Source: Candidatus Scatomonas merdigallinarum
GTDB taxonomy: Bacteria > Bacillota > Clostridia > Lachnospirales > Lachnospiraceae
Reading direction: 5' to 3'
Assembly (NCBI GenBank): GCA_018716305.1
Contig: DVKB01000034.1
Span: forward strand, 124,001 to 188,000
DNA: 64,000 nt
Positions 10,126-39,022 of the stretch are shown in pieces; position 1 is the first letter of the stretch, and each line of letters opens with the position of its first letter. The notes beneath the pieces are model-generated. The model was not told where the DNA came from, ran no database searches, and saw only the letters and a list, made by a program, of their open reading frames with translations. The translations under genes were made by a program, and so were the position numbers.

Positions 10126-11928
10126 ATGATTTTGAAGCAAAAAAAACAAAGCAGCCTGTCCCGCATTTTAAGTTACGCAGGCGGGCACAAACATCTCACC
10201 CTGCTGGGCTGCCTTCTCTCCGCTCTTTCGGCGGTACTGGGGCTGATCCCCTATGTATGCGTCTGGCTGGCGGCAAGGAATGTACTGGAGGCCTGGCCCG
10301 GCACTGACGGAATATCCGGTCTGGCCCGCTGGGGCTGGACGGCGGTCTGGACCGCCATAGGCAGTATTCTCCTGTATTTTGCGGCCCTGATGTCTACCCA
10401 TATCGCCGCCTTCCGCACAGCCCGGAATATCCGGCGTGCCGCCATGGCCCATGTACTGAAGCTTCCCCTGGGATTTTTTACAGAAAATCAGTCCGGGCGG
10501 CTGCGGAAGCTCATTGATGATAACGCCGGCCTTACAGAAGATCTTCTGGCCCACAAACTTCCTGATCTGGCGGGAACGGCAGTCACTCCCGCGGCAGCTG
10601 TTGTCATGCTGTTTCTCTTCGACTGGAGAATGGGTCTTCTGTGTCTGCTCACTATGATCCTTGCCTTCCTCTCTATGTGCCTGATGATGGGCGGAAAAAA
10701 CGCCGGTTTCTTTCATCGGTATCAGAAGGAGATCGAGCGCATGAGCGGCGAGGCGGTAGAGTATGTCCGGGGCATTCCCGTGGTAAAGATGTTTCAGCAG
10801 ACCGTCTACTCTTTCAAAGCGTTTTACGCCGCCATCCGGGATTACAGTGATCTGGCCAGTCAGTATGCCATGAGCTGCAGGGTAGGACAGACCTGCTTCC
10901 TGACTTTTATCAACGGGGCATTCGCCCTGCTGATCCCGGCGGCGCTTCTGCTGGCCTCCGGAGGAGATATCCGGACCGTGCTGGTCAATTTTATCTTTTA
11001 TGCCCTGTTCGCCCCTGCCTGCGGCCAGATGATCAACCGGATTATGTATATGAGCGAGGCGGTCATGGAAGCGGACGAGGCGGTGGGCCGTCTGGAGGAA
11101 ATTCTCAGCCGGAAACCTATGGAAGAATCCAATGAGCGGAAATCTCCGGCAAATGCCGCCGTGTCCTTTGACCATGTGACCTTTACCTATCCCGGCGCAG
11201 AGAGACCGGCTCTCAAGGATGTATCTTTCTCTGTCCTTCCCGGCCGGGTAACGGCGCTGGTCGGGCCCTCCGGCGGAGGAAAGACTACAGCCGCCAGCCT
11301 GATCCCCCGCTTCTGGGACGCGGACAGGGGGACGGTTTCCATCGGCGGAGTCGATGTGCGGGAGATGGACACGGACGCTTTAATGAAACAGGTGGCCTTT
11401 GTATTCCAGGATACCCGGCTGTTCAAAGAAAGCCTTCTGGAGAACATCCGGGCTGCCAGACCGGAGGCTTCCAGAGAGGAGGTTCTGTCTGCCGCCCACG
11501 CTGCTCAGTGCGATGACATTCTGGAAAAACTTCCCCGGGGTCTGGATACTGTGGTGGGGACAAAAGGCGTTTACCTCTCCGGAGGAGAACAGCAGCGGAT
11601 CGCCCTGGCCCGCGCCATCCTGAAAGACGCTCCCATCGTCGTGCTGGATGAGGCCACAGCCTTTGCCGATCCGGAAAATGAACACCGGATCCAGAAGGCC
11701 TTTGAAGTGCTGACCAAGGGTAAAACTGTGCTGATGATCGCCCATCGCCTCTCAACGGTGCGGAATGCGGATTCCATTCTTGTCCTGCAGGGCGGAGAGA
11801 TCGCCGAGCAGGGAAACCATAAGAGCCTGCTGGCACAGCATGGCGCCTATGCCGCCATGTGGGAGGATTACCAGCGCAGCGCCAGGTGGAAGCTTGGAAA
11901 ACAAGGAAAGAAGGAGGGAACGGTATGA
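10126..11928 (+). CDS. ABC exporter, fused permease/ATP-binding subunit
   Basis: TM domain plus Walker A GPSGGGKT, LSGGEQQR signature, VVLDEATA Walker B; AGGAGG before ATG 10126. Confidence 0.92.
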   Translation: MILKQKKQSSLSRILSYAGGHKHLTLLGCLLSALSAVLGLIPYVCVWLAARNVLEAWPGTDGISGLARWGWTAVWTAIGSILLYFAALMSTHIAAFRTARNIRRAAMAHVLKLPLGFFTENQSGRLRKLIDDNAGLTEDLLAHKLPDLAGTAVTPAAAVVMLFLFDWRMGLLCLLTMILAFLSMCLMMGGKNAGFFHRYQKEIERMSGEAVEYVRGIPVVKMFQQTVYSFKAFYAAIRDYSDLASQYAMSCRVGQTCFLTFINGAFALLIPAALLLASGGDIRTVLVNFIFYALFAPACGQMINRIMYMSEAVMEADEAVGRLEEILSRKPMEESNERKSPANAAVSFDHVTFTYPGAERPALKDVSFSVLPGRVTALVGPSGGGKTTAASLIPRFWDADRGTVSIGGVDVREMDTDALMKQVAFVFQDTRLFKESLLENIRAARPEASREEVLSAAHAAQCDDILEKLPRGLDTVVGTKGVYLSGGEQQRIALARAILKDAPIVVLDEATAFADPENEHRIQKAFEVLTKGKTVLMIAHRLSTVRNADSILVLQGGEIAEQGNHKSLLAQHGAYAAMWEDYQRSARWKLGKQGKKEGTV

Positions 11929-19982: not shown

Positions 19983-21572
19983 TCATTCTGCCGGAACAAT
20001 TTCCGTAGTCAGCCAATAATAATCCGCTGTATGGATATGGGCATATCCTACACGCTCATTGGAATAAACCATGGAACTGTTATAGTAACCATCTACGATT
20101 ACCAGGGCATCATCTATGATAATCTGCTGCATTTCCTTTACCAGTTCTTTTCTTCTCCCCGGATCCAGTTCATTCTGCAGAGATTCATACAACTGGTCAT
20201 ATTCCGGATTGGAATACCCGCAGTAAGTAGTTTCGGAGTACCAGTTGCCGAGATACTCCAGCGGATCGCCGGTTCCCACAGTGGTCCAGTTATTATTGTT
20301 CAGATCATAATCTCCCGCAGCCAATTTGCTCCACTGATCGTCGGAACTTCCGTATTCAGCTGTGACTCCGATGCCGATTTCCGCCAGGTACTGGGTATGC
20401 GCGTCTGAGAAATCATTTAACAGACGATTTTCGTAGGAAACATAGCGAAGATTAATATTCTGCCCCTCCAGTTCCCGGATACCGTCCCCATCGGTATCTA
20501 TAATTCCCGCATTGTCCAGCAGTTCCCTGGCCCCTTCCGGATCATAGGCATAGGGATCTGTCAGTTCCTCATAGCCGTAATCCAGATTGGAAGGCAGTAC
20601 GGAAATACCGGCTGTATACAGGCCGCCGATGGTTTTGGATGCGCAGATCTGGTCTTTATCAATCGCCATGAGGATCGCCTGGCGGAGGGTATCGTTGGCT
20701 AAAACCCCGTCCAGGTTCATCCAGCTGAATCCGCAGCGCACGCCGGTGGCGATATCCACGGTAAAGTCAGGATTCTCCTGAAAATCCTGAATGTCGGAAA
20801 CATTGGTGATGTTTTCCACCAGATCTACCTGGCCGCTCTGCAGGGCCATGGTCTTTGCGGAGGCATCTCCCATGAAAAGAATATTCACTTTCTCATAGGG
20901 AACTTCTTCATAATAATTGGGATTGGCTGCCATCTCGTAACCGACTCCCACGCCCTCAAACTGGCTTACCATATAGGGGCCGGTTCCGATGACCCCATTC
21001 ATGAAATCCTCTGTATGTTCTATATCAACCACCGCCATGACCGGATAAGCCAGCTGCCCCGGCAGGTCATTGTACGGCTGACTTGTAAGGATCGTCAGTG
21101 TATTTGCCTGGTCATCCGCTGTGATTTCCGCTTCAAACTCCAGATATTTTTCCGCGTTGGCCGAAGACTCTTCGGATACTTCTCTCAGATATTCAAAGCA
21201 TTCCTTTACCTTTGAAGGGGTTACCTGACAGCCGTCCGAAAAATAAATATCGTCTCTCAGGGTAATCACCCATTTGGTATGCTCCTCATTTACTGTATAG
21301 CTTTCAGCCAGCCATGGCTCCGTATTCATTTCATCATCGAACCGGAAAAGAGCCTCCGTAATACCATAGCGCATGGCATTCCAGGCGCCGTTGGGCGTCA
21401 GAGAAAAATTCAGGGAGCCGTCATCGTACATCTGGCATCCGAAATTTAAAACCTTTTCTTCCCCGGCATGTGATTCCGCAGTTTTGGAGTTATCCGAACG
21501 GCTGCATCCGGAGAGCAGGAAAAGCGCGCTAATAGCTGCCATTCCAAAAACAAGATACTTTCTGGGCTTCAT
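19983..21572 (-). CDS. ABC transporter substrate-binding lipoprotein, NikA/OppA (SBP family 5)
   Basis: Lipobox LFLLSGCSRS; NPNYYEEVPYEKV, IGTGPYMV, DTDGDGIRE; start MKPRKYLVFGM at 21572. Confidence 0.9.
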   Translation of the reverse strand: MKPRKYLVFGMAAISALFLLSGCSRSDNSKTAESHAGEEKVLNFGCQMYDDGSLNFSLTPNGAWNAMRYGITEALFRFDDEMNTEPWLAESYTVNEEHTKWVITLRDDIYFSDGCQVTPSKVKECFEYLREVSEESSANAEKYLEFEAEITADDQANTLTILTSQPYNDLPGQLAYPVMAVVDIEHTEDFMNGVIGTGPYMVSQFEGVGVGYEMAANPNYYEEVPYEKVNILFMGDASAKTMALQSGQVDLVENITNVSDIQDFQENPDFTVDIATGVRCGFSWMNLDGVLANDTLRQAILMAIDKDQICASKTIGGLYTAGISVLPSNLDYGYEELTDPYAYDPEGARELLDNAGIIDTDGDGIRELEGQNINLRYVSYENRLLNDFSDAHTQYLAEIGIGVTAEYGSSDDQWSKLAAGDYDLNNNNWTTVGTGDPLEYLGNWYSETTYCGYSNPEYDQLYESLQNELDPGRRKELVKEMQQIIIDDALVIVDGYYNSSMVYSNERVGYAHIHTADYYWLTTEIVPAE

Positions 21573-21603
21573 TTTTTCTTCCTCTCTTTGCTGTTTGTTA
21601 CAA

Positions 21604-21645
21604 AGCCAAAAAAAAGATCTGATGCTCCCGCACCAGATCGGATCC
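21604..21645 (-). terminator. Intrinsic terminator between cobalamin riboswitch and SBP gene
   Basis: Minus strand GATCTGGTGC-GGGA-GCATCAGATC-TTTTTTTT. Confidence 0.85.
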
Positions 21646-21744
21646 TCTTTTCCACACAAAAAATGCTCGATTGCCTGCTTTTAAACAAAACAACGAATCG
21701 TATAGAATAAAGATTTCTCGTCCTCCGCAAGAACCTTTGACAGA

Positions 21745-21945
21745 AAATAAGCAGGTCTCCTGGCTTAAGCATTCTTGTCCTCGGCGCCTTCCCAGGGGAT
21801 TTCCCCAGTGGCATTCTGCCTTGGACCAGCTATTACAGTGACGGGATCGCTCCGGATTTTCACCGGATTCCCTTTTAATCAGAACAGCTCTGAACTTATT
21901 TCTCACGGCTTAACTGCCGGCTTTGTACCGGTCTATTATAGCATC
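21745..21945 (-). ncRNA. Cobalamin (B12) riboswitch
   Basis: Minus strand ...AAAGGGAATCCGGTGAAAATCCGGAGCGATCCCGTCACTGTAATAGC...GCCACTGG...GGGAAGGCGCCGAGGACAAGAATGCTTAAGCCAGGAGACCTGC; B12-box and conserved core. Confidence 0.96.
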
Positions 21946-26108: not shown

Positions 26109-26357
26109 ATGAAGATCCACATATGGCAGGCCCTGCATGACACAGAGGCCCGCAGAGAAATGGAAAAAGAAAGCCTGGAGCAGATGATCCGGATCTACTG
26201 CCACGGAAAACACCGCGCACGGAAGGGCCAGCTCTGCCCTGACTGCCTGAAATTCCGTGATTACGCCTGGAAACGCACGGACAAATGTCCCTTCATGAAG
26301 ACCAAGACCTTCTGCAGCCGCCTGCCTGAGCGCCGGTTCTTCATATTTTCTGGATAA
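26109..26357 (+). pseudogene. YgbA-like (nitrous-oxide-stimulated promoter family) protein, apparently 3'-truncated
   Basis: EKESLEQMIRIYCHGKHRARKGQLCPDCLKFRDYAWKRTDKCPFMKTKTFCS matches the Cys motif family, but the expected C-terminal Cys/His segment is replaced by RLPERRFFIFSG*. Confidence 0.6.
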
Positions 26358-27165
26358 TCATGGAAAAAATCGCCGTTCGGATATGAATTTTCTTCTCCTT
26401 CAGCGGCGCGCAGGTCCGGAGCCTGCAGTTTCCGATCAGCAGATTTTCCTCCGCATGGTAGGTGTAATCCAGCATTTCCGCCGGAAAGGAATAATAATCC
26501 CCGTCCTTTACTGTCGGCTCGAAGCCCTTCTTCCCTTCATATTCCAATTCCGCCAGCTTTCCATGAAGCATCAGACGTTCCATCAGGTTCCGGCGTTCCA
26601 GGGCCACCGCCTTCAGCCGGATGGTTCCTGTTCCCTTTCTGACGCGCAGCGTGGCGGGATGCTCCATCCCCCGGTCTGCCATCGAAAGATATTTTCCACG
26701 TTCAAAATTCTCCCGGTAGATCACAAAGGCCACCGGATAGTCTCCATCTCCCAGCATATCCGCGAATTCTGAAAAAGTCAGGTTCCGCAGCGGCTTCAGC
26801 TGCTGGAAGAGCCGGTTAAGCCGGGTTCTTCGGAAAAGCTGCTCTTTCATACCTTCCGTGAGGAACATCACCATCTGCATGGCGTTTTCCCGGTTTTCAT
26901 TCTCATCCAGATGCACGGTCTCCTGCAGGTATTCCTCCATAAGCCTGAGCTCTTCCCGGTACCGTCCGGCTATCGCTTTCCCTTCCTCTGTCAGTCTCAG
27001 TGAATCCCCGCAGACAATCTTCTGTGACACCAGATAACTGATATTCCGGCTGGCAGAAGCCTTGGACACCTGGAAAAAACGGGCCAGCTCCGTAACGGTA
27101 ACGGTTTTTTTCTCATCTGTATCCAGATAAAGCAGATACGCCAGACGCTTCGTTGTCATTTCCAT
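26341..27165 (-). CDS. DtxR/MntR-like transcriptional regulator with unusual C-terminal region
   Basis: HTH TVTELARFFQVSKASASRNISYLVSQKIVCGDSLRLTEEGKAIAGRYREELRLMEEYLQETVHLDENENRENAMQMVMFLTEGMKEQL follows DtxR-family layout; ~150 aa atypical C-terminus. Confidence 0.7.
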   Translation of the reverse strand: MEMTTKRLAYLLYLDTDEKKTVTVTELARFFQVSKASASRNISYLVSQKIVCGDSLRLTEEGKAIAGRYREELRLMEEYLQETVHLDENENRENAMQMVMFLTEGMKEQLFRRTRLNRLFQQLKPLRNLTFSEFADMLGDGDYPVAFVIYRENFERGKYLSMADRGMEHPATLRVRKGTGTIRLKAVALERRNLMERLMLHGKLAELEYEGKKGFEPTVKDGDYYSFPAEMLDYTYHAEENLLIGNCRLRTCAPLKEKKIHIRTAIFSMIIQKI

Positions 27166-27187: not shown

Positions 27188-27244
27188 TGATTGAATAATT
27201 CGCAAACCCCCATCTCAGATGGGGGTTTGCGAATTATTCAATCA
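27188..27244. repeat. Perfect 57-bp palindrome (28-bp arms, 1-nt centre)
   Basis: TGATTGAATAATTCGCAAACCCCCATCT-C-AGATGGGGGTTTGCGAATTATTCAATCA. Confidence 0.95.
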
Positions 27245-27249
27245 GTAAA

Positions 27250-27846
27250 TACGATCACGTTTGACGCTGTCAAACAGGCAGTTGCACTTTTGGGGAAGGC
27301 CACTTTTGTCATGGACCGTGGTTATGATGAAAATAAGATATTCCTCCTGCTGGATCACTTGAAGCAGGATTACGTGATCCGTCTGACTTCCAAACGCAAA
27401 CTGCTTTACCATAACAAATGGACTCAAGCAACGGAACTGCGGAACCGGCGGAAAGGCAAGATAAAAGCAGATGTTTTTTTTAAAGGGAAAGAACATACCG
27501 CATATCTTTCCCATGTCAAGGTTCAGATCACTGCCTCCCGAAAGGATATTTATCTGGTTCTGGTCTATGGCATTACGGAACATCCGATGATGCTGGCCAC
27601 AAACAAAGAGATCCGTTCAAAGGATGATGTGATCCGCATTGCCAGGACCTACTTTTCCAGATGGCGGATCGAGGAATATTTCCGTTGTAAGAAGCAGACC
27701 CGCTCAGGGAGAAAGTCAGTTTCTGCTATTACCGGCTGGCGAAAGGCATCTCCGGCATACTGTCGTATGCAAAGCAAGGCGTCAGGCTGTGGTTCCAGAC
27801 AAAACGTCCGGCATACCGTCAGCTCTGCCTTACGCTGACCGCTTAA
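27250..27846 (+). mobile_element. IS4-type transposase remnant (5'-truncated, internal deletion/frameshift)
   Basis: ITFDAVKQAVALLGKATFVMDRGYDENKIF...YFSRWRIEEYFRCKKQ (YREK-like signature), then a frame change to PLREKVSFCYYRLAKGISGILSYAKQGVRLWFQTKRPAYRQLCLTLTA*. Confidence 0.8.
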
Positions 27847-28019: not shown

Positions 28020-28778
28020 TCACAGAACCGCCTGGATGAGTTTTATGGTGTACGCTTTCCGGGGATGAAGGATTACCTGCTCCGGCGTTCCCTCTTCCAC
28101 GATCCTGCCTTCCGCCATGACCAGCACCCGGTCACAGAACTGCTGCACCAGAGCCAGGTCATGGCAGATAAACAGGTAGGACAGCCCCCACTCCCGCTTC
28201 AGGGAGGCTAACAATTCCAGAACCTGTTTCTGTACCGTGACATCCAGGGCGCTGGTAGCCTCATCGCAGATCAGCAGCCGGGGCTCCACCGCCAGCGCTC
28301 TGGCGATGGCCGCCCGCTGGCACTGGCCTCCGCTGACCTCATGGGGATAGCGGCCGGCAAAGTCCGCCGGAAGTCCGCACTGCATAAAAAGCTTCTCCAC
28401 CCGCCTTTTTCGCTCTTTGGAAGAAAGGCCGGTATTTTTCAGGCTTTCTCCCACCCCGTCCCCCAGGGTCCGGCGGGGGTCAAAGGATTCCGCCGGAGAC
28501 TGAAAGACCATCTGCAGCTGCCGGTATACCTGGCGCTGCTCCCGGGACTTCAGATGAGTGACCGCTCTGCCCCCAAGATAGATCTCCCCCTCCGAGGGCT
28601 TCAAAAGCCCGGTGATCATTCTGGCCACCGTGCTTTTGCCGGATCCGGATTCCCCCACGATGCCCAGAGTTTCTCCGGGAAGAAGGCAGAAGCTTACATG
28701 GTCCACAGCGGCCAGTTCCTCCTGTCCTTTTTTCTGAAATGTTTTGGTCAGTTTTTTTACTTCCAGCAAAGGTTCCAT
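28020..28778 (-). CDS. Nik/Opp-type ABC transporter ATP-binding protein (NikE/DppF-like)
   Basis: IVGESGSGKST, VSGGQCQRAAIARAL, CDEATSALDVTVQ. Confidence 0.9.
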   Translation of the reverse strand: MEPLLEVKKLTKTFQKKGQEELAAVDHVSFCLLPGETLGIVGESGSGKSTVARMITGLLKPSEGEIYLGGRAVTHLKSREQRQVYRQLQMVFQSPAESFDPRRTLGDGVGESLKNTGLSSKERKRRVEKLFMQCGLPADFAGRYPHEVSGGQCQRAAIARALAVEPRLLICDEATSALDVTVQKQVLELLASLKREWGLSYLFICHDLALVQQFCDRVLVMAEGRIVEEGTPEQVILHPRKAYTIKLIQAVL

Positions 28779-29561
28779 CTAATTTTTCTCCAGCACCGGC
28801 ACAGCGGCCAGCAGCTCCTTTGTATAGTTTTCCCGGGGACGGCCCAGCACCTGCGGGGCCGGTCCGTACTCCACAGCCTCCCCCGCCTTTAAAACAAGGA
28901 CTGTATCCGCCATGGCCCGGACCACTCCCAGATTATGGGTCACCAGCACCATGGCTGTGCCGTACAGTTCCCGCGTCAGCAGCAGTTCCTCCACCGCCTG
29001 TCTCTGCACAGAGACGTCCAGGGCGCTGGTAGGCTCATCCGCCAGCAGGATCTCCGGCTTCAGGAGCATGGCCATGGCGATCCCCACTCTCTGGTTCATG
29101 CCCCCGGAAAGTTCAAAGGGATAGCCGGCCAATATCCGTTCCCCTTCCCGGAAACCCAGCCGGGCAAAAAGCTCCAGGGCTTCTGTATCGCTTTCCTTCC
29201 GGGTGATCTTTCTGTGAGCGGAAAGACTCTCAAAGATCTGGCTGCCGATGGTGCGCACCGGACACAGGGCGGCTCCGGCGTCCTGAAAGATCATGCCGAT
29301 CTGCGCGCCCCGGATCTTCCGCAGTTCCTTTTCCGTAAGATCCGGCAGGTTCCGGTCCCGATACAGGATCTCTCCTTGGGTCACCAGGCCTCCCTGGCCC
29401 AGGATCCCCAGGGCCCCCCGGATCAGGGAGCTTTTTCCGCTGCCGGATTCCCCCACAATTCCCAGGATTTCTCCGGACTTCAGGGTAAAATTGATATCAC
29501 GGACTGCCGGGATCCCGTTATAGGAGATCTCCACCGACCGGTAAACAAGTAATTCTTCCAT
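28779..29561 (-). CDS. Nik/Opp-type ABC transporter ATP-binding protein (NikD/DppD-like)
   Basis: IVGESGSGKSS, LSGGMNQRVGIAM, ADEPTSALDVSVQ. Confidence 0.9.
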   Translation of the reverse strand: MEELLVYRSVEISYNGIPAVRDINFTLKSGEILGIVGESGSGKSSLIRGALGILGQGGLVTQGEILYRDRNLPDLTEKELRKIRGAQIGMIFQDAGAALCPVRTIGSQIFESLSAHRKITRKESDTEALELFARLGFREGERILAGYPFELSGGMNQRVGIAMAMLLKPEILLADEPTSALDVSVQRQAVEELLLTRELYGTAMVLVTHNLGVVRAMADTVLVLKAGEAVEYGPAPQVLGRPRENYTKELLAAVPVLEKN

Positions 29562-29582
29562 GGTTTTCTCCGTTCCGCCGCC

Positions 29583-31151
29583 TCAGCCGCCGATATCCAG
29601 ATCCGCGGTGATCTCGTAATAATCGCAGGGATGCGCTGTCAGTCCCGTAACCGAAGCGTCTGCGACCATGCTCATCCGCAGATGGGAGGCAAACACAAAG
29701 GCATTGTCCTTCAGAATCACCTGCTGCATTTCCACAGCCAGTTCCTGCCGGCGGGCGCTGTCAAAGGTCCGGGACATCTCCTCCGCCAGGTTCTCCAGCT
29801 CATCGCTGTGATAATGGCCGTCATTGTTGGCGGAGCTGTCCAGGCAGCGGTAGGTAAAGAAATATTCCGGATCTCCCGTGGGCGCTGTCACCATGGCGCT
29901 GACGTAAATGTCCCAGGCAGAAGGGTCTGTGCGGATGCTGTTGTGGTCCGCGGTGCTGTTGATCTCCACCTGAAAACCGATCTCTCCCAGAGTGGACTGG
30001 GCATACTCCGCCAGCAGCGGCAGCTCCTGGCGGCTGGGATAGGTGAGCCAGCGCAGGGTCAGCAAAGTTCCCTCTTTTTCCCGGATTCCATCCCCATCTG
30101 TATCGATCCAGCCCGCTTCCTCCAGTACCTTTTCGGCTTCTTCCGGATCATAGGTTTCCGTGGAAACCGCGTCGCCGCCAAAGATAAAGTTTTCCGGGAA
30201 TACCCCTTCTGCCGGATATCCGTTGCCCCCCAGCAGGGTCTCCACAAAGCCCTCCTTATCGATGCCCAGGGCAATGGCTTTGCGCACCGCGGGATCCCCG
30301 GTAACGGGGCTTTCAAAGTTCATGGTGCCGAAAAATGCCCGGCTGGTGGCACAGCTGGTAAAGGAGTACTGTTCATTTTCAAACAAAGGATAGCTGGCGT
30401 AGGGCATGCCGTAGGCCACATCGATCTCTCCCGACTGCAGAGCCATAGTCAGGGTATCTCCGTCAGTAATGGTGCGGACCGTAACCTTGTCCAGCTTCGG
30501 CTCCCCTCCCCAGTAGTTTTCATTTTTCACCAGCTCCAGTCCGCTGTCTGTCACCAGGGAAACCGCCTGGTAAGGCCCGGTGCCGGAGACAATCCCCTCC
30601 TCTGTGACTCCCGCCTCCATGTCGATGACGCAGCCGTAGGGATCCGCCAGATAATGGATCAGGGCAGGCACCGGCTCAGCGGTGTGTATGGTCAGAGTAT
30701 AACCCTCCGCGGTGATCTCCCGGATTTGCAGGTCCTCCGCCGCCCGGACATGGACAGAGATCAGATCCTCCAGGCATTCTTTCACCGACTGAGCGTCCAT
30801 ATGCCGGCCGCTGGCAAAGTCCACATCCTCCCGGAGCTGAATCACCCAGGTCAGCTCGTCCGTGTTTTCATAGCTTTTCGCCAGCCAGGGCTCTATCTCC
30901 ATGGAATCGGAAAAGCGGAACAGAGTCTCCCCCACTCCGTAGCGGATGCAGGCCCAGCCGCTGTTGTCCCGGTGGGGATTGATGTCGGGTTCTCCGTTTT
31001 CCGCGTTAAAGGTGGTATCGCCCCACACCAGCGACTTTTCTCCGGAGGTCTCCGGAGATGGCTCCTGAGCCAGCGTTCCGCCGCTGCACCCGGACAGCAG
31101 AGAAATCAGCAGTCCGGCGGCCAGGAATGTGGTCCATGTTTTTTTTCTCAT
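29583..31151 (-). CDS. ABC transporter substrate-binding lipoprotein, NikA/OppA (SBP family 5)
   Basis: Lipobox LISLLSGCSGG; LVKNENYWGGEPKLDKV, GTGPYQAV, DTDGDGIRE. Confidence 0.9.
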   Translation of the reverse strand: MRKKTWTTFLAAGLLISLLSGCSGGTLAQEPSPETSGEKSLVWGDTTFNAENGEPDINPHRDNSGWACIRYGVGETLFRFSDSMEIEPWLAKSYENTDELTWVIQLREDVDFASGRHMDAQSVKECLEDLISVHVRAAEDLQIREITAEGYTLTIHTAEPVPALIHYLADPYGCVIDMEAGVTEEGIVSGTGPYQAVSLVTDSGLELVKNENYWGGEPKLDKVTVRTITDGDTLTMALQSGEIDVAYGMPYASYPLFENEQYSFTSCATSRAFFGTMNFESPVTGDPAVRKAIALGIDKEGFVETLLGGNGYPAEGVFPENFIFGGDAVSTETYDPEEAEKVLEEAGWIDTDGDGIREKEGTLLTLRWLTYPSRQELPLLAEYAQSTLGEIGFQVEINSTADHNSIRTDPSAWDIYVSAMVTAPTGDPEYFFTYRCLDSSANNDGHYHSDELENLAEEMSRTFDSARRQELAVEMQQVILKDNAFVFASHLRMSMVADASVTGLTAHPCDYYEITADLDIGG

Positions 31152-32029
31152 TTTGTTCTTCTCCTTTTTCTCTGTCCGTTTCTGGGATCCAGATAATCCC
31201 GCACAGTGTCCCCCAGAAGGTTAAAAAGCACTACAGAAGCAAAAATCCCAAGTCCCGGGGTCAGTACCACCCAGGGATAGGTCTGCAGCATACTCCTGCC
31301 GCTGCTCATCATACTGCCCCACTCCGCTGTGGGGGGCTGGGCTCCCAGCCCCAGAAAAGAAAGGGCCGCGATCTCCATCATCATGGTGCCGATATCCAGC
31401 ATGGCCGTCACCAGCACCGGGCCGGCGATGTTGGGCAGGATGTGGCGGAAAAGGATCCCCAAAGAAGAGGTTCCGGAAAGCTTTGCCGCCTGGATATAGG
31501 TGAGATTTTTCACCGTCAGAGTCTGGCTCCTGGCCAGTCTGGCATATTTGGGCCAGCTCACCGCCGCCAGGGCAATCACCGCGTTTTGGATGCCGCCCTG
31601 GAGCACTGCCGCCACAGCCATGGCGAACACCAGCCCCGGAAAAGCCAGGCAGATGTCCGAGACCCGCATGATCACCGCGTCCAGGGCTCCGCCGAAATAG
31701 CCGCAGAGCAGCCCCAGAAGAGTCCCTCCCACGGCGATGATCCCCACCAGAATCAGGGCAGAAAAAATACTGGTCTGTCCCCCTACGATCACCCGGGAGA
31801 GCATATCCCTCCCGTACCGGTCCGTGCCGAAGGGATGATCCGGGCTTGGGGGCTGCAGGGCAATAGACAGATCCTGCCCGTTGGGGTCATAGGGGCAGAT
31901 CCATTCCGCGAAAACCGCCGCCAGCAGCAGGGCGATAACCAGAGACAGGAACAGGATCAGACGGATCCTGGTGTGATCGGCCCGGATCCTCTGCCGGCGC
32001 GCCCCGATCTTTTCAGTATGAGAATTCAT
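31148..32029 (-). CDS. Nik/Opp-type ABC transporter permease (NikC-like)
   Basis: HPFGTDRYGRDMLSRVIVGGQTS...LGAQPPTAEWGSMMSSGRSML. Confidence 0.9.
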   Translation of the reverse strand: MNSHTEKIGARRQRIRADHTRIRLILFLSLVIALLLAAVFAEWICPYDPNGQDLSIALQPPSPDHPFGTDRYGRDMLSRVIVGGQTSIFSALILVGIIAVGGTLLGLLCGYFGGALDAVIMRVSDICLAFPGLVFAMAVAAVLQGGIQNAVIALAAVSWPKYARLARSQTLTVKNLTYIQAAKLSGTSSLGILFRHILPNIAGPVLVTAMLDIGTMMMEIAALSFLGLGAQPPTAEWGSMMSSGRSMLQTYPWVVLTPGLGIFASVVLFNLLGDTVRDYLDPRNGQRKRRRTK

Positions 32030-32970
32030 GCCTTCTCACCTCCCAGCCGCACCCGGGGATCCAGGGCCCGGTAGCAAAGATCCGTAATAAGATTCACCGC
32101 CACATAGATCACGGCCATCCACACTACGTAAGCCTGGATCACAGGATAATCCCGCATATTGATGGCGTCCACCGCCAGCTTTCCCACCCCGTCCCACATA
32201 AAAATGGACTCCACAATGGCAGTCCCTCCCAGGAGACTGCCCAGAGACAGAGCCATGAGAGTGAGAATCGCGGACAGACAGGAACGCAGGACATATTTCC
32301 GCAGGATCACGGAAAAAGGCACCCCTCTGGCCCTTGCTCCCGTCACATAGTCCTTGCCCAGCTCCTCCAGCACCGCCGCCCGGATCTGCCGCATATATTT
32401 AGCGGACATGGCAATGGCCAGGGTCAGGGCCGGCAGGGCCGCGCTCCTGAGGCTCAGACCCTCCGAAATCACCGGAAAAACGGGAATATATATGGCCAGC
32501 AGATACATCAGCACCAGAGCCACAAAAAAGTTGGGAAGGCTGCTGCCGATAAAACTGCACACCCGGATCAGATAGTCCGTAAATCGATTCTGTCTTACCG
32601 CCGCCAGAATTCCCAGAGGCAGGGAGATCACCACCGTCAGCCCCATGGACAGCACCGTCAGAAGCAGGGTTGCCGGCAGCTTGGACACAAAGACAGAAAA
32701 TACATCGCTGCCGGAAATATAGCTGGTGCCCAGATCTCCTGTAAGAAATCCTCCCAGCCAGCGGAAATACTGCGCCAGAAATGGCTGATCCAGCCCCAGC
32801 TCCGCTCTCCGGGCGGCGATCACCTCCGGGGAGAGGGCCACTCCGGAAACCTCCGACTGCTGCAGCACCGCGTCGCTGCCGGCGATCCGCATCAGGGCGA
32901 AAGAAAGAAAGGTAATGCCCAGCAGGATGGGAATCAGCAGAAGCAGCCTGCGGATCACATATTTCTTCAT
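32026..32970 (-). CDS. Nik/Opp-type ABC transporter permease (NikB-like)
   Basis: MKKYVIRRLLLLIPILLGITFLSFALMRIAGSDAVLQ...; start at 32970 gives an ATGA overlap with the methyltransferase stop. Confidence 0.9.
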   Translation of the reverse strand: MKKYVIRRLLLLIPILLGITFLSFALMRIAGSDAVLQQSEVSGVALSPEVIAARRAELGLDQPFLAQYFRWLGGFLTGDLGTSYISGSDVFSVFVSKLPATLLLTVLSMGLTVVISLPLGILAAVRQNRFTDYLIRVCSFIGSSLPNFFVALVLMYLLAIYIPVFPVISEGLSLRSAALPALTLAIAMSAKYMRQIRAAVLEELGKDYVTGARARGVPFSVILRKYVLRSCLSAILTLMALSLGSLLGGTAIVESIFMWDGVGKLAVDAINMRDYPVIQAYVVWMAVIYVAVNLITDLCYRALDPRVRLGGEKA

Positions 32971-33767
32971 GATATCTCCTTCTGGCTCAGATTCTTTACC
33001 GCCCGGATCAGAAACATGGGGGTAGAGGAATTGTTGATCCTCTCCTCCCGGGTCCAGACCCGTCTCCAGATCTCCGGATCCGCCTCCATCTCCATTCCCA
33101 GTCTCTCCAGGACCTTCCGGTCCCATTCCGGGCGGAGAGCCAGGGAAAGGGGCGCCTGCACGGCAATGGCCTCCATGGCGGGGATATCCGTCCCGTCGGT
33201 CTCGTTGGCCACCCCTTCCGCCAGGATATTCTCCCGGTCCTTCAGATACCCTTCCCGGGCCTCCCGGTCATACAGATACCGGTACCAGTTGGCGTCAAAG
33301 TTCAGCAGAAGCCCGCCGGGCTTCAGGACCCGGCACCATTCCCCGTAGGCTTTCTCCGGGTGGGGCAGGTTCCAGGTAAGGTTCCTGGTAACGATCACGT
33401 CAAAACGGTTCTCCGGGAATTCCAGCTGTTCCGCGTTCATTCGCAGAAAACAGATGCGGTCCCTCCAGATCCCCGCGTTATTCCCGGCCTCCTTCAGCAT
33501 GGATTCCGTATAGTCCACAGCGGTAACCTGATACCCCATTTCCGCCAGGATCACCGAAAAAAAACCGGGGCCGCAGCCTATGTCCAGAACAGAAAGTTCC
33601 CCCGGCTTCCGTTCCGGATACTGCCGGCTGATCTGCTCAAAAAGAACTCCGCCCCACACCTGATGCTGACCGGAGTTCAGTTCACTTTTATTCACTTCAG
33701 AATATCCGGCCGCCCGGTTGGTCCAGTAGGCCTGATTCTCTGTTTCATACTGCCGAAATGTCTGCAT
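32967..33767 (-). CDS. Class I SAM-dependent methyltransferase
   Basis: LSVLDIGCGPGFFSVILAEMGYQVTAVDYTESMLKEA...FDVIVTRNLTWNLPHPEKAYGEWCRVLKPGGLLLNFDANW. Confidence 0.9.
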   Translation of the reverse strand: MQTFRQYETENQAYWTNRAAGYSEVNKSELNSGQHQVWGGVLFEQISRQYPERKPGELSVLDIGCGPGFFSVILAEMGYQVTAVDYTESMLKEAGNNAGIWRDRICFLRMNAEQLEFPENRFDVIVTRNLTWNLPHPEKAYGEWCRVLKPGGLLLNFDANWYRYLYDREAREGYLKDRENILAEGVANETDGTDIPAMEAIAVQAPLSLALRPEWDRKVLERLGMEMEADPEIWRRVWTREERINNSSTPMFLIRAVKNLSQKEIS

Positions 33768-33774
33768 ACATCCT

Positions 33775-33829
33775 CCTTAAAACCCGTCGTTCTTTGGTTC
33801 TCCCCTATAGTATCATACGGGTTTTAAGG
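33775..33829. promoter_or_regulatory. Perfect 13-bp inverted repeat flanking the methyltransferase-nik promoter/leader
   Basis: CCTTAAAACCCGT (33775-33787) and ACGGGTTTTAAGG (33817-33829). Confidence 0.75.
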
Positions 33830-33855
33830 CTGTAAGCCCCCCCTGGGGATAAAAT
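33807..33855 (-). promoter_or_regulatory. Promoter with GC-palindromic element, site A (methyltransferase-nik operon)
   Basis: Minus strand ATTTTATCCCCAGGGGGGGCTTACAG - 17 bp - TACTAT. Confidence 0.65.
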
Positions 33856-35282
33856 TACTGCCGGGGCTGACTTTGCGAAGGCTTTTCCAGAGCTTTTTTA
33901 AACCGGAAGGCAAAGAGAATGGCCGTAAAGGTTACCGCCAGGGTGTCTGCCGCCGGTTCCGCCAGGTACACGGAGGTGGTCTTCTCCAAAGGCAGGATTC
34001 CCGGAAGCAGGTAGATCATAGGAATCAGCAGGACAAACTTCCGCACAACCGCCACCGCGATGGATTCCACCGCTCTGCCCAGGGCGTTAAAGGTCATCTG
34101 GCAGGCCATCTGGATTCCGAAGAGGAACATGACCCCCATGTAGATCCGCAGGGCAGTCCCGGTATAGGCGATCAGCTCCGGGCTGGTGGTAAACATGGCG
34201 GCAAACACTCCGGGAAACAGCATAACCAGAGCCCATAAGATCCCCGCGTAGGCCATGCTGACTTTCAGCAGGAGCCGGAAAGCCCCCTTGACTCTTCCGT
34301 AGTCCCCGGCCCCGTAGCAGTAGCTGATGATGGGCTGGGCGCCCTGTCCCAGTCCCTGCAGGGGGAGCATGGCGAACTGCATGACGCTGGTGAGAATGGT
34401 CATTGCTCCCACGGCAATGTCTCCTCCATAGTTCTGAAGAGAACTGTTAAAGCAGACGGAGATCACACTCTCGCTGGCCTGCATGATAAAGGTAGCCGCC
34501 CCCAGGGCCACGCAGGGGCCTATCACCTTGGGAACCAGCCGCAGATTCTTCTTTCGGATCCGCAGAAAGGTCCGCTTTCCGCAGAGAAAACTCACCACCC
34601 AGAGGCAGGAGAGGGCCTGGGAAATAATCGTGGCCAGCGCCGCGCCCCGGACGTTCATTCCCAGTCCGAAAATAAAGATGGGATCCAGGATAATGTTGGA
34701 CACTGCCCCGATCAGCACAGAGAGCATGCCGGTCTTCGCAAAGCCCTGGGCAGTGATAAACGCGTTCATTCCCAGGGTCAGCTCCACAAAAATGGTTCCC
34801 ACGGCGTAGATGTTCATGTAGTCCACCCCGTAGCCGATGGTCTTTTCACTGGCCCCGAAGGCCATGAGCAAATCCCGGTTCCAGATCAGCAGTACCGCTG
34901 TCAGGATCACGGAAAGGAGGATCTGCAGGACAAAGCAGTTGCCCAATGTTTTCTCCGCGGAATCCTTATCCTTCCTGCCCATAAAAATAGAAGCCCTGGG
35001 AGATCCCCCGTAGCCTACCAGTGCCGCGAAGGCGGATACGATCAGAATCAGAGGCATGCATACGCCTACCCCTGTCAGGGCGGAGGCTCCGATATCCGGA
35101 ATATGCCCGATATAGATCCGGTCTACAATGTTGTACAGCATATTGATCAGCTGCGCCGCCACCGTGGGCAGAGCCAGCTTAACCAGTAATTTCCCCAGAG
35201 GCTCCCTCCGCAGAAATTCCTTGCTGTTCTCCGGAGTTTTCTGAAGTTCCATGTCTGTCTGTTCCTGTTCTTTCTGTTTCAT
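33855..35282 (-). CDS. MATE family efflux transporter
   Basis: REPLGKLLVKLALPTVAAQLINMLYNIVDRIYIGHIPDIGASALTGVGVCMPL. Confidence 0.92.
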   Translation of the reverse strand: MKQKEQEQTDMELQKTPENSKEFLRREPLGKLLVKLALPTVAAQLINMLYNIVDRIYIGHIPDIGASALTGVGVCMPLILIVSAFAALVGYGGSPRASIFMGRKDKDSAEKTLGNCFVLQILLSVILTAVLLIWNRDLLMAFGASEKTIGYGVDYMNIYAVGTIFVELTLGMNAFITAQGFAKTGMLSVLIGAVSNIILDPIFIFGLGMNVRGAALATIISQALSCLWVVSFLCGKRTFLRIRKKNLRLVPKVIGPCVALGAATFIMQASESVISVCFNSSLQNYGGDIAVGAMTILTSVMQFAMLPLQGLGQGAQPIISYCYGAGDYGRVKGAFRLLLKVSMAYAGILWALVMLFPGVFAAMFTTSPELIAYTGTALRIYMGVMFLFGIQMACQMTFNALGRAVESIAVAVVRKFVLLIPMIYLLPGILPLEKTTSVYLAEPAADTLAVTFTAILFAFRFKKALEKPSQSQPRQ

Positions 35283-35734
35283 TGGGGATCACTTCTCCTT
35301 CCTTCCAGGGCATTCCTGGAATTTTCAAACAGCCGGCGCTGGAGTTCTACCAGAGTTTCCAGATCCCGGCTGGAAAAACCCTGCAGCACCGCGGCCAGAA
35401 ACTCCTCTCTGACCTGGTCCACCGCCTCCATCAGGGGCTTTGCCTGTTCCCGCAGCCGCAGATGGATCTTTCTTCTGTCCTCCCGGTCCGGCAGCCGTTC
35501 CAGCAGGGACTTCCGGATCAGGGACTCCACCGCCTTGGAGACGGCGCCCTTGGAGATCATCCGCAGTTCCGTAATGTCCCCCGCCGTGTCTTTTTCAGGG
35601 TTATTCAGCAGAAAACTCACAATCTCCGCTTCAGCCACCGTCAGATCGTGGTCCGTGCAGACGCGCTTCAGCATTCGGTCGTACAAGCGGAACAGGCCCC
35701 GCAGACCGGTAAATATTTCTGTTGTGGGAGTCAT
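35279..35734 (-). CDS. MarR family transcriptional regulator
   Basis: RVCTDHDLTVAEAEIVSFLLNNPEKDTAGDITELRMISKGAVSKAVESLIRKSLLERLPDREDRRKIHLRL; ATGA overlap with MATE. Confidence 0.92.
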   Translation of the reverse strand: MTPTTEIFTGLRGLFRLYDRMLKRVCTDHDLTVAEAEIVSFLLNNPEKDTAGDITELRMISKGAVSKAVESLIRKSLLERLPDREDRRKIHLRLREQAKPLMEAVDQVREEFLAAVLQGFSSRDLETLVELQRRLFENSRNALEGRRSDPQ

Positions 35735-35755
35735 CCTTTTTTTCTCCTTTGTTTT

Positions 35756-35819
35756 TTTGTAAACAGTTTACAAAGAAACTATATGGGTAACAGTATACCA
35801 TTTACAGAAAAGAAGTCAA
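35756..35819 (-). promoter_or_regulatory. marR-type promoter and operator palindrome
   Basis: TTGACT (35814-35819) - 16 bp - TATACT (35792-35797); palindrome TTTGTAAACAGTTTACAAA (35756-35774). Confidence 0.75.
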
Positions 35820-35827
35820 GGTCCCCT

Positions 35828-35885
35828 GCGGCAAAAATCCAGGCCCGGCGACTGCGAAAGACTGCCAGGCCTGGATTTTTGCCGC
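35828..35885. repeat. Inverted repeat with 18-bp perfect arms
   Basis: GCGGCAAAAATCCAGGCC (35828-35845) / GGCCTGGATTTTTGCCGC (35868-35885), 22-nt loop. Confidence 0.9.
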
Positions 35886-35916
35886 GGATATTTTCAATGA
35901 GTGAATTCATGGCTTC

Positions 35917-35965
35917 AGTATAAGCCCTGTCCCTGTCCTCCGCAAGCCCCCGTGGGGGTTATTTC
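35917..35965 (-). promoter_or_regulatory. Promoter with GC-palindromic element, site B (towards hairpin and marR-MATE)
   Basis: Minus strand GAAATAACCCCCACGGGGGCTTGCGG - 17 bp - TATACT. Confidence 0.65.
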
Positions 35966-37698
35966 TTCTGCTGATTTCTGACCTTGGACGCCCGGATCAG
36001 AAACAGGGGCGTGGGATTGTAAAATTCATCCTTCTCCCGGTAGATTTCTCTTCCGATCCCCAGTTCGATCTGTACAGAAGTCATGCCTGCCGCTTCCAGA
36101 GCCTCCAGATCCCAGCCGGGACGGCTGCAGGCGGTAATAGACAGCTGCCGTTTCAGCCGCTCGCACTCCTCCAGCATTTCTCTCCCCAGTCTGTGGTGCG
36201 CGTGATTCTGGGGCAGGCCCCTGGAATCCGTACAGTCCTCCTTGCCGTAATCGGCGTCAAAATTCAGCAGCACACCGTCCTCCTTCAGAACCCGGCTCCA
36301 CTCCCGGTAGGCCTTTTCCGCGTCCGGCAGAGTCCAGGTAAGATTTCTGGTAACCAGAACGTCAAAGGTTCCGTCAGAAAATTCCGGGTTCTCCGCGTCC
36401 ATAACCTGAAACCTGCAGCGGCTCCGCTCTTCCGCCGACAGTTCCTCCGCCGCAAGTTCTTCGGCCCCCCGGATCATGCCGGGAGTGAGATCAATGCCGG
36501 TGACCTCATATCCTTCCCTGGCCAGCAGAATGGAGAAAAACCCCGTGCCGCAGCCCACATCCAGGATTTTCAGTTGCTTTTTCCCCGGCAGATGCTTCCG
36601 CAGGATCTCCAGAAAGCGGTCCGCCAGAGAACTGTGAAGCTCCTGTCTCCTCTGCTCCAGAAAATCCCGGCTGCGTTTGGACCAGTAGCCGGCGATCTGT
36701 TCCTTCCGGTCATCAGAATGATAGTCAATCTTTCCGTAAGCGATCATGGGACCGTTCTCGCAGACCTGCAGACTTCCCGTCTGGTAGAGGATCACACCGT
36801 TTTCCTGGGCCACAGACTCCTCCAGGATATTTCCCTCGTAGTCCCTGGTGACTCCCAGAAGATCCCCCACGCTGAACAGATCTCCCGGGCGTTTTTCAGG
36901 ATACCAGAGGCCGAAGCAGGAAGCCGCCTGATACTGAATATCCGTCACTTCCAGGGGATAGTGGGTTCTGACGATATGGCCCCCGGGGCAGATTCCCAGA
37001 TAATCCAGGATGCTCCGCACATCCTTTTTGGCGGACTGAACCTCCTCGCCGCTCCAGGCTCCCATGCCGCCCCGCTCCAGGAGAACGCTGGGGATCCCGC
37101 GGGAGGCTGCGTAGTTGTAAGAACCTCCGGAGTCCACCTCCGAGCGGACCATATAGGGCACGTCTGCCTGTCTTGCCATTTCCCGGGAGATCCGGGTCAC
37201 CTCCGGATCCGCCTTTCCCGCGTAATAAATATAGGGGGCCAGTTCCTCATAGTCATCTCCGCTGTGGAGATCAATATAATAATCCGCCTCTTTGTGAAGG
37301 TGTTTCACCACCGCCGCTGCCAGGCGCTCCGTGACGGTTCCCATCGGATCCCCGGGGAATTCCCGGTTCAGGTTTTTTCCATCCTCCCGGCTGACGCTGC
37401 CCAGCCGGTTTTCAAAATCCTTCCGGTTCACAGTCTTTACCAGCAGGATCCGGCCGCTGACCTGCTCCGGCAAAAGTTCCTCCGCCAGTTCCAGCACTGC
37501 CTGGATTCCCACGTATTCCCCGGCGTGGACGCCGGCGGTGATCAGCACGGTTTTCCCGGGGGCCTTACCGCAGAGGATCGTGGCCGGAACCGAAAAGCCG
37601 CTCTCTCCCAGCTCCAGTATGCCGCTTATTTTTTCCCCCGGCCGGACCTCCTCCGGACGGATGATCTTTGTCTCGTATTTTTTGTATCCTTTCGCCAT
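35959..37698 (-). CDS. Fusion protein: AstE/AspA-type (M14-like) deacylase domain + class I SAM methyltransferase domain
   Basis: N-terminal ITAGVHAGEYVGIQAVLELA...REFPGDPMGT...YYIDLHSGDD (Zn ligands) and C-terminal LKILDVGCGTGFFSILLAREGYEVTGIDLTPGM...FDVLVTRNLTWTLPDAEKAYREWSRVLKEDGVLLNFDAD. Confidence 0.88.
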   Translation of the reverse strand: MAKGYKKYETKIIRPEEVRPGEKISGILELGESGFSVPATILCGKAPGKTVLITAGVHAGEYVGIQAVLELAEELLPEQVSGRILLVKTVNRKDFENRLGSVSREDGKNLNREFPGDPMGTVTERLAAAVVKHLHKEADYYIDLHSGDDYEELAPYIYYAGKADPEVTRISREMARQADVPYMVRSEVDSGGSYNYAASRGIPSVLLERGGMGAWSGEEVQSAKKDVRSILDYLGICPGGHIVRTHYPLEVTDIQYQAASCFGLWYPEKRPGDLFSVGDLLGVTRDYEGNILEESVAQENGVILYQTGSLQVCENGPMIAYGKIDYHSDDRKEQIAGYWSKRSRDFLEQRRQELHSSLADRFLEILRKHLPGKKQLKILDVGCGTGFFSILLAREGYEVTGIDLTPGMIRGAEELAAEELSAEERSRCRFQVMDAENPEFSDGTFDVLVTRNLTWTLPDAEKAYREWSRVLKEDGVLLNFDADYGKEDCTDSRGLPQNHAHHRLGREMLEECERLKRQLSITACSRPGWDLEALEAAGMTSVQIELGIGREIYREKDEFYNPTPLFLIRASKVRNQQKK

Positions 37699-37756
37699 AG
37701 CTTCCAGTCCTTTTCTCATGTTATTCTTTTCCGCCGAAACGGAAATCACAGAATCT

Positions 37757-37805
37757 ACTATAAAGGGCCTGGGGAAATACCGCAACCCACCCCGGGGGAT
37801 ATTTC
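37757..37805 (-). promoter_or_regulatory. Promoter with GC-palindromic element, site C (deacylase-methyltransferase fusion)
   Basis: Minus strand GAAATATCCCCCGGGGTGGGTTGCGG - 17 bp - TATAGT. Confidence 0.65.
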
Positions 37806-37897: not shown

Positions 37898-38788
37898 TTA
37901 AATCTCAATCAGTTCGTACTCCCTGGAACCCATGCCCAGATCCGCGGCCGCCTCAATGGTATGGATTCCGTTGCGGCTGTTGACCCGCTCCATGAAATGC
38001 TCCTTTCCGGGATCATCGGAACGGAGCACCAGATCCATGCAGGCCTGATCGATGGCCACCGGATCCAGGGAAGCCAGAATGCCGATATCCTTCATGCAGG
38101 GATCTTCCGCCACTTCGCAGCAGTCGCAGTCCACGGAAAGATTTTTCATAACGTTGATAAAAGCGATCTTGTCCTTAAAATAAGCGGTAATGCTGGACGC
38201 CGCGTCCGCCATGGCTTCCGGAAAGGCCACTTCGCTGGCGTGCTGTTTCCAGGTCTCATAGCGGTCATCGGTCTTTCCGGCGCTGTGAATCAGCGCCTTG
38301 CCTCTGGAACTGGCGCAGCCGATAGCCAGCTGTTTCAGGGCCCCGCCGTATCCTCCCATGGGATGGCCTTTAAAGTGGGCCAGGACCAGCATGGAGTCAT
38401 AATGAACCGTGTGACTTCCCACATGATTCTCCTTCAGGACTTTGCCTCCGGGAACCGGCCATACCAGATCCGGCTCCTCCGCGTCCAGAATATCCACCTG
38501 GAAATACTTGGTCCATCCGTGTTCCTGGATTAATTTCCAGTGCTCCTCGGTATGATCCCTCACGCCTCCGCAGGCATCCCCGTAAGCGGTGTTGGTCTCT
38601 ACCACCGTGCCCTGCACTTCCTCCACCATGGGCTTCCAGAATTCCGGACGAAGATAGTTCTGATTGCCCCTTTCGCCGGAGTGAACCTTTACAGCCACCT
38701 TTCCCGGCAGGGTAATCCCCAGGGCGTGATACATCTTTACTACGGATTCCGGCGTAATTTCTTTTGTGAAATAAACCTTTGCTTTCAT
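37898..38788 (-). CDS. DUF362 domain-containing protein
   Basis: MKAKVYFTKEITPESVVKMYHALGITLPGKVAVKVHSGERGNQNYLRPEFWKPMVEEV...HFKGHPMGGYGGALKQLAIG...; DUF362 pattern. Confidence 0.85.
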   Translation of the reverse strand: MKAKVYFTKEITPESVVKMYHALGITLPGKVAVKVHSGERGNQNYLRPEFWKPMVEEVQGTVVETNTAYGDACGGVRDHTEEHWKLIQEHGWTKYFQVDILDAEEPDLVWPVPGGKVLKENHVGSHTVHYDSMLVLAHFKGHPMGGYGGALKQLAIGCASSRGKALIHSAGKTDDRYETWKQHASEVAFPEAMADAASSITAYFKDKIAFINVMKNLSVDCDCCEVAEDPCMKDIGILASLDPVAIDQACMDLVLRSDDPGKEHFMERVNSRNGIHTIEAAADLGMGSREYELIEI

Positions 38789-38825: not shown

Positions 38826-39022
38826 TGACACCAGGGTCAAATAGATATGCTTTTCATGCCTGCATGAAAAAGCATATCGACTTGACCCGCAAAACACCGA
38901 AAAGGAGCCATTTTTCGCAAAAAAATGTGCGGATTTGAGGTGTTTTAGGATTGTGAGAGCGCAAAGCGCGGAACAATCCGTGGTGTCAAGAGGTCAAATT
39001 AAAATTTGACCTCTTGACACCA
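38826..39022. repeat. Multi-hairpin intergenic element
   Basis: Hairpins 38834-38888, 38891-38946, 38948-38979 and a 19-bp-arm palindrome 38982-39021; TGACACCA at both edges (38826-38833, 39015-39022). Confidence 0.75.

Follow-up and report, generated by a model that had tools for sequence, protein, structure and literature searches.

What controls the nickel-type import genes of Candidatus Scatomonas merdigallinarum, a member of the Lachnospiraceae, and the methyltransferase and deacylase genes that accompany them? We analyzed 64,000 nucleotides of its contig DVKB01000034.1 (assembly GCA_018716305.1, positions 124,001 to 188,000 of the forward strand; hereafter the window), in which a sequence-only reading had proposed that three aligned 26-bp GC-palindromic promoter elements, A, B and C, tie a gene module into one regulon. 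We consider it somewhat better than an even bet (roughly 0.55) that the three act as operator-promoters in a regulon for nickel/cobalt acquisition and that their reader is an InrS-like sensor of the CsoR/RcnR family whose apo-form activates. All three were found on the minus strand at the coordinates given below with their exact sequences, each followed by a 17-bp spacer and a -10 hexamer (scores are from the weight matrix described below; G numbers denote genomes, L numbers loci):

33807..33855, minus strand: element A, operator/-35 at 33830-33855, 17 bp, then extended -10 TGA-TACTAT at 33807-33812; ahead of mtA-nikBCADE; matrix score 23.3; retained at the same place in the sister species G258.
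35917..35965, minus strand: element B, operator/-35 at 35940-35965, 17 bp, then -10 TATACT at 35917-35922; overlaps the stop codon of a deacylase-methyltransferase fusion gene; matrix score 33.7.
37757..37805, minus strand: element C, operator/-35 at 37780-37805, 17 bp, then -10 TATAGT at 37757-37762; ahead of the fusion gene; matrix score 26.5; orthologous site in G258.

The anatomy of the elements is narrower than first described. Only CCCCC-N3-GGGG forms a dyad, not the whole 26 bp; its C-tract lies at -48..-44 and its G-tract at -40..-37, which places the centre of the dyad at -42.5 and the dyad itself directly against the -35. The hexamers, previously read as -35-like, are poor: TTACAG in A agrees with TTGACA at 2/6 positions, TTGCGG agrees at 3/6, and B and C each score 3/6. 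None of the three thus reaches the sigma70 consensus threshold of at least 4 matches to TTGACA, and none passes a generic promoter scan of the window; in an Rfam scan, none of the three coincided with a known RNA element. Such a poor -35 is more in keeping with an assisted promoter than with a plain one. Over the 26 bp, pairwise identity is modest (A-B 16, A-C 17, B-C 21), and on identity alone A does not outdo the best of the window's chance 26-mers, so that this comparison is weak evidence for A. We therefore sought the element in other genomes.

Searching 299 genomes of the same family with the fusion protein as query turned up 12 further genomes with a close full-length fusion, and many more in which its two halves have separate homologues. 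In loci chosen solely for this homology, a string resembling ATCCCCC..GGGGCTTGTG..TAAAGT recurs upstream of methyltransferase, fusion and nik genes. Its phasing is rigid: among 41 A[AT]CCC[CT] seeds in these loci, TTG stands at exactly +15 in 23 and TAnnnT at exactly +38 in 18, with the remaining distances scattered. Scanned without regard to genes, the exact pattern AWCCCC-N5-RG-N2-TTGT-N19-TANNNT was present in 36/299 genomes (51 sites listed), and the reversed pattern, used as a control, gave only a handful of matches. Nearly all new sites lie ~30-150 bp upstream of nik-type ATP-binding cassette (ABC) operons of two types, of CbiM operons or of other regulon genes, and a few matches (for example in G125 and G270) look spurious. 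Further genes behind sites include an ABC system with a methyltransferase that we call FecCD-like from reading its sequence rather than from a family search, as well as mtA, mtB, the fusion, MATE, ThiJ-like, FmdE-like, LysR and CsoR-family genes. At L067 a gene combining CbiM and PDGLE (10131-11242; nickel/cobalt uptake of the energy-coupling factor type) directly follows a site, so that the regulon is wider than ABC/Nik importers.

From 46 non-redundant sites of other genera, none from the genus of the window, we built a weight matrix with the consensus TATCCCCCNNNGGGGCTTGTG-N15-TGNTANANT, again centred at -42.5 and with a poor -35. Run on the window, the matrix gave its three highest scores to B, C and A, in that order; the fourth place scored 2.4, and the maximum in 200 shuffles was 11.4. 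Across the own genome, where the test consisted of pattern searches, A, B and C were the only matches to the aligned pattern at 0 mismatches, and allowing 1 mismatch added one poor match. In G258, C and A are kept at orthologous promoters; between fusion and mtA that species has A only, with neither B nor a marR-MATE cassette. The three elements are real. That they define one regulon is well supported by these scans: the element recurs across the family before the same gene set and, in its own genome, occurs only in this module, the opposite of a motif that is common genome-wide and unlinked to these genes. Our literature search, incomplete in its coverage, did not find a description of the motif or of the regulon.

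Could the element simply be an unusual constitutive promoter, or the target of a specialised sigma factor? Its distances are fixed throughout, down to an extended -10 TG in 27/46 sites, as such a promoter would have. A two-tract dyad upstream of the -35 is no sigma feature, however, the element is restricted to metal-uptake genes, and it correlates with a metal-sensor gene; we regard this explanation as improbable.

That gene encodes a member of the CsoR/RcnR family (PF02583), which we found in 20/21 genomes tested; it is missing from G229, whose mt/nik locus is site-free. One PF02583 subgroup has a His-rich N-terminus, and its closest PDB structure is InrS (5fmn, E 4e-22). The nickel ligands of InrS are His21, Cys53, His78 and Cys82 (PMC4235346, PMC7055735), His21 being non-essential according to one account (PMC4235346) and a ligand according to the other (PMC7055735). 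All four are kept in 24/27 aligned InrS-like proteins, including that of the own genome, whereas G239 and the extra copies present in G195 and G133 have lost the set. The own-genome gene lies outside the window (G000:C7:28824-29174, with its DUF156/PF02583 match at 28836-29069) and its product has 117 amino acids. In the genomes examined, the InrS-like gene often shares an operon with a small gene of ~75 amino acids and an ATPase that looks like ApbC/Mrp (L113, 2822-3175).

Calling presence at E < 1e-20, and leaving relatedness uncorrected, we found the InrS-like gene in 33/36 site-positive genomes as compared to 52/263 others (p=1.7e-17). The three site-positive genomes without a call are G125 and G270, with their spurious-looking sites, and G202, whose homologue is divergent but carries the same ligands. 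When gene content was kept constant by comparing only homology loci (39 genomes, again uncorrected for relatedness), the site was present in 21/24 genomes with the sensor and in 1/15 without it (p=6e-7); in loci fetched later, outside the training set, the figures were 4/6 and 0/13. In this comparison G202 is the single sensor-negative genome with a site, and G239, which has the sensor and no site, has lost 3/4 of the ligands; its fusion locus being site-free (L072, L168), G239 is a possible natural loss experiment. The association extends to position. Most telling is G179, where two back-to-back sites lie between csoR and a ThiJ-like gene; the InrS-like gene is also near a site in G195, G133, G292, G230, G148 and G214, and site-like sequences precede the InrS-like operon in G093, G201 and G090, two of these three being too deviant in spacing or sequence for the matrix.

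These data also bear on two other candidate readers of the element. One is encoded locally, by a regulator gene that closes the nik operon:

26341-27165, minus strand: DtxR/MarR-like regulator with a weak NEAT-like match; present in the own genome, not in G258.

This protein is adjacent and has a dimerisation domain like that of iron-dependent repressors, and it is absent from G258 and from 16/19 other genomes tested, the three matches being at most 31% identical. Missing from the sister species and from most genomes where the element is present, it was rejected as the regulator; the idea is largely refuted and, in our view, very improbable. A different factor might instead read the element, such as the LysR-type protein whose gene follows the fusion in G102, G150, G195 and G263, lies behind mtB in G136 and stands directly behind a site in G152, with the CsoR-family gene a mere fellow traveller. 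Yet the LysR-type gene is not universal, with only distant matches in the site-positive G090, G093, G133 and G028; a T-N11-A type site is absent from the element; and the LysR genes are accounted for as members of the regulon. We hold this second candidate to be unlikely.

The CsoR/RcnR assignment, originally suggested by the C- and G-tracts, gains from co-occurrence, adjacency, the InrS ligands and the two-tract operator; the TAC/GTA dyad expected of CsoR operators is what it lacks. Several points weigh against it. In its own genome the sensor gene is unlinked to the module, and its promoter has no such site. The 52 sensor-positive genomes outside the site-positive set have no exact match in the strict scan, at least 6 of them carrying variants; loci in G058 and G082 have no site; and G202 offers a divergent homologue only. 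The co-occurrence statistics ignore kinship among the genomes. The flanks of the dyad lack the CsoR-typical TAC/GTA, and CsoR-family members are mostly repressors. Taken together, the comparisons strengthen the CsoR/RcnR reading without proving it.

How might such a sensor act here? As a rule, proteins of the CsoR/RcnR family bind DNA when metal-free and are released by metal. For an import gene this rule makes regulatory sense only when the bound protein is an activator; activation, for which InrS at the Synechocystis nik operon is the precedent, is the mode that we prefer. The metal-free sensor would bind the CCCCC-N3-GGGG dyad at -42.5, adjoining the poor -35, and the bound apo-sensor would assist RNA polymerase in initiation; in a metal-replete cell, metal binding would free the sensor from the DNA and import would cease. 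What the computations show is the element, its fixed phasing, the genes of the regulon and the link with the sensor gene; the physical binding, the identity of the metal and the choice of activation over repression we infer. The position of the dyad, its fixed phase and the weak -35 suit activation: in 45/46 sites the -35 agrees with TTGACA at 3-4/6 positions and keeps T and G where the consensus has other bases, whereas most operators of the Cu-CsoR type in these genomes occupy the promoter spacer. The same InrS-like protein could instead repress from its -35-overlapping site, either with the metal-bound form binding, as in the logic of NikR, or with release by some other signal. Overlap with the -35 is a usual position for a repressor, most of the family repress, and the co-occurrence and adjacency evidence applies equally. 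Repression would, however, turn import on in metal excess unless the allostery were reversed, and a repressor needs neither rigid phasing nor a sub-optimal -35; we judge it distinctly less probable than activation by the apo-sensor, if a slightly stronger contender than a LysR-type reader.

The module comprises the following genes:

35959..37698, minus strand: fusion of an AstE/AspA-type deacylase with a class I methyltransferase, 579 amino acids from the likely ATG (start taken from the 579-residue G258 protein; the listed open reading frame begins at 37785).
35279..35734, minus strand: marR-type regulator.
33855..35282, minus strand: MATE efflux protein.
32967..33767, minus strand: mtA, a class I methyltransferase that shares 37% identity with the methyltransferase part of the fusion.
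28020..32970, minus strand: nikB-nikC-nikA-nikD-nikE, peptide/nickel-type ABC importer.

The placement of A before the methyltransferase-nik operon and of C before the fusion is borne out; the assignment of B to the marR-MATE unit is doubtful, because two features intervene:

~35824..35888, minus strand: strong hairpin with an A-rich 5' arm and a U-rich 3' arm, resembling a bidirectional terminator, between B and marR.
35819-35792, minus strand: marR's own sigma70-type promoter, TTGACT-16-TATACT, TG-extended, with 10/12 matches.

The hairpin stretch folds at -55 kcal/mol (z -5.4), and a similar hairpin terminates the fusion gene in G258; the marR promoter is better than that of B. MATE genes belong to the regulon in other genera, so B may nevertheless serve marR-MATE through read-through or a short leader.

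The best PDB match of the substrate-binding protein of the nik operon is a nickel-binding protein (3t66, E 3e-66), and sequence searches gave only general family matches for the methyltransferase and deacylase. In four genera, a methyltransferase, a deacylase and a second methyltransferase form a single polypeptide of 813-856 amino acids (L064 10017-12470, L067 803-3373, L068 9414-11855, L069 9900-12422), which suggests that the three enzymes act in one pathway. More tentatively, a metal-free CsoR/RcnR protein might be a dedicated activator of nickel/cobalt acquisition throughout the family, including an undescribed methyltransferase-deacylase pathway that perhaps makes or processes a small molecule carrying nickel or cobalt. 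Elsewhere in the window, a Clostridiales-1 RNA (Rfam RF01699, 120 bits, 38826-38988, plus strand) is divergent from an open reading frame beside element C (37898-38788); a cobalamin riboswitch (21733-21914, minus strand) precedes an open reading frame of another gene cluster (19983-21659); and the open reading frame at 27191-27838 (plus strand), between the DtxR-like gene and nikE, reads by eye as a transposase fragment.

How does this regulon compare with known systems? As control of a nickel-import operon it resembles NikR-nikABCDE, and the E. coli NikR site GTATGA-N16-TCATAC (PMC7055735) was not seen in the consensus of the element. Among organisms with NikABCDE, fewer than half were found to have NikR (PMC2667541), which leaves the control of nickel import in the rest open; the site, its genes and the candidate sensor offer a candidate answer for a large bacterial family. 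If that answer is true, the CsoR/RcnR family, which mainly controls efflux, extends to the control of import as well, and the linked methyltransferase and deacylase genes are marked as metal-acquisition genes. The opine-type metallophore systems (cnt, staphylopine) likewise bring enzymes that use S-adenosylmethionine together with an exporter and an importer of the Opp/Nik type under common control, although the importer genes here fall below the Cnt cut-offs.

A type 2 CsoR operator consists of two short G/C tracts 2-4 bp apart with TAC/GTA inverted-repeat flanks (PMC3902906). The element shares the two G/C tracts, the short gap and an AT-rich left flank, with CCCCC-N3-GGGG in the 46-site consensus, but it has TAT on the left and CTTGT on the right in place of the TAC/GTA dyad, and we therefore do not class it among the canonical CsoR operators. 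It also differs from the operators of the Cu-CsoR type in the same genomes, which read ATACCCC..GGGGTAT and occur for the most part within the -35/-10 spacer or downstream. The closest parallel is InrS, the nickel sensor of Synechocystis: it is the best PDB match of the candidate sensor, which shares with it a His-rich N-terminus, the H-C-H-C nickel ligands and an RLSR-type DNA-binding motif. InrS is reported to act on a metal-efflux gene as well as on the nik import operon (PMC4235346, PMC7055735); here, by contrast, no efflux target was seen, the import regulon is large and includes methyltransferase and deacylase genes, and operator and -35 are fused in a fixed register. According to a review (PMC7055735), the import genes of Synechocystis are expressed more strongly through binding of InrS upstream of their nik operon, and our element would function like that InrS-assisted nik promoter.

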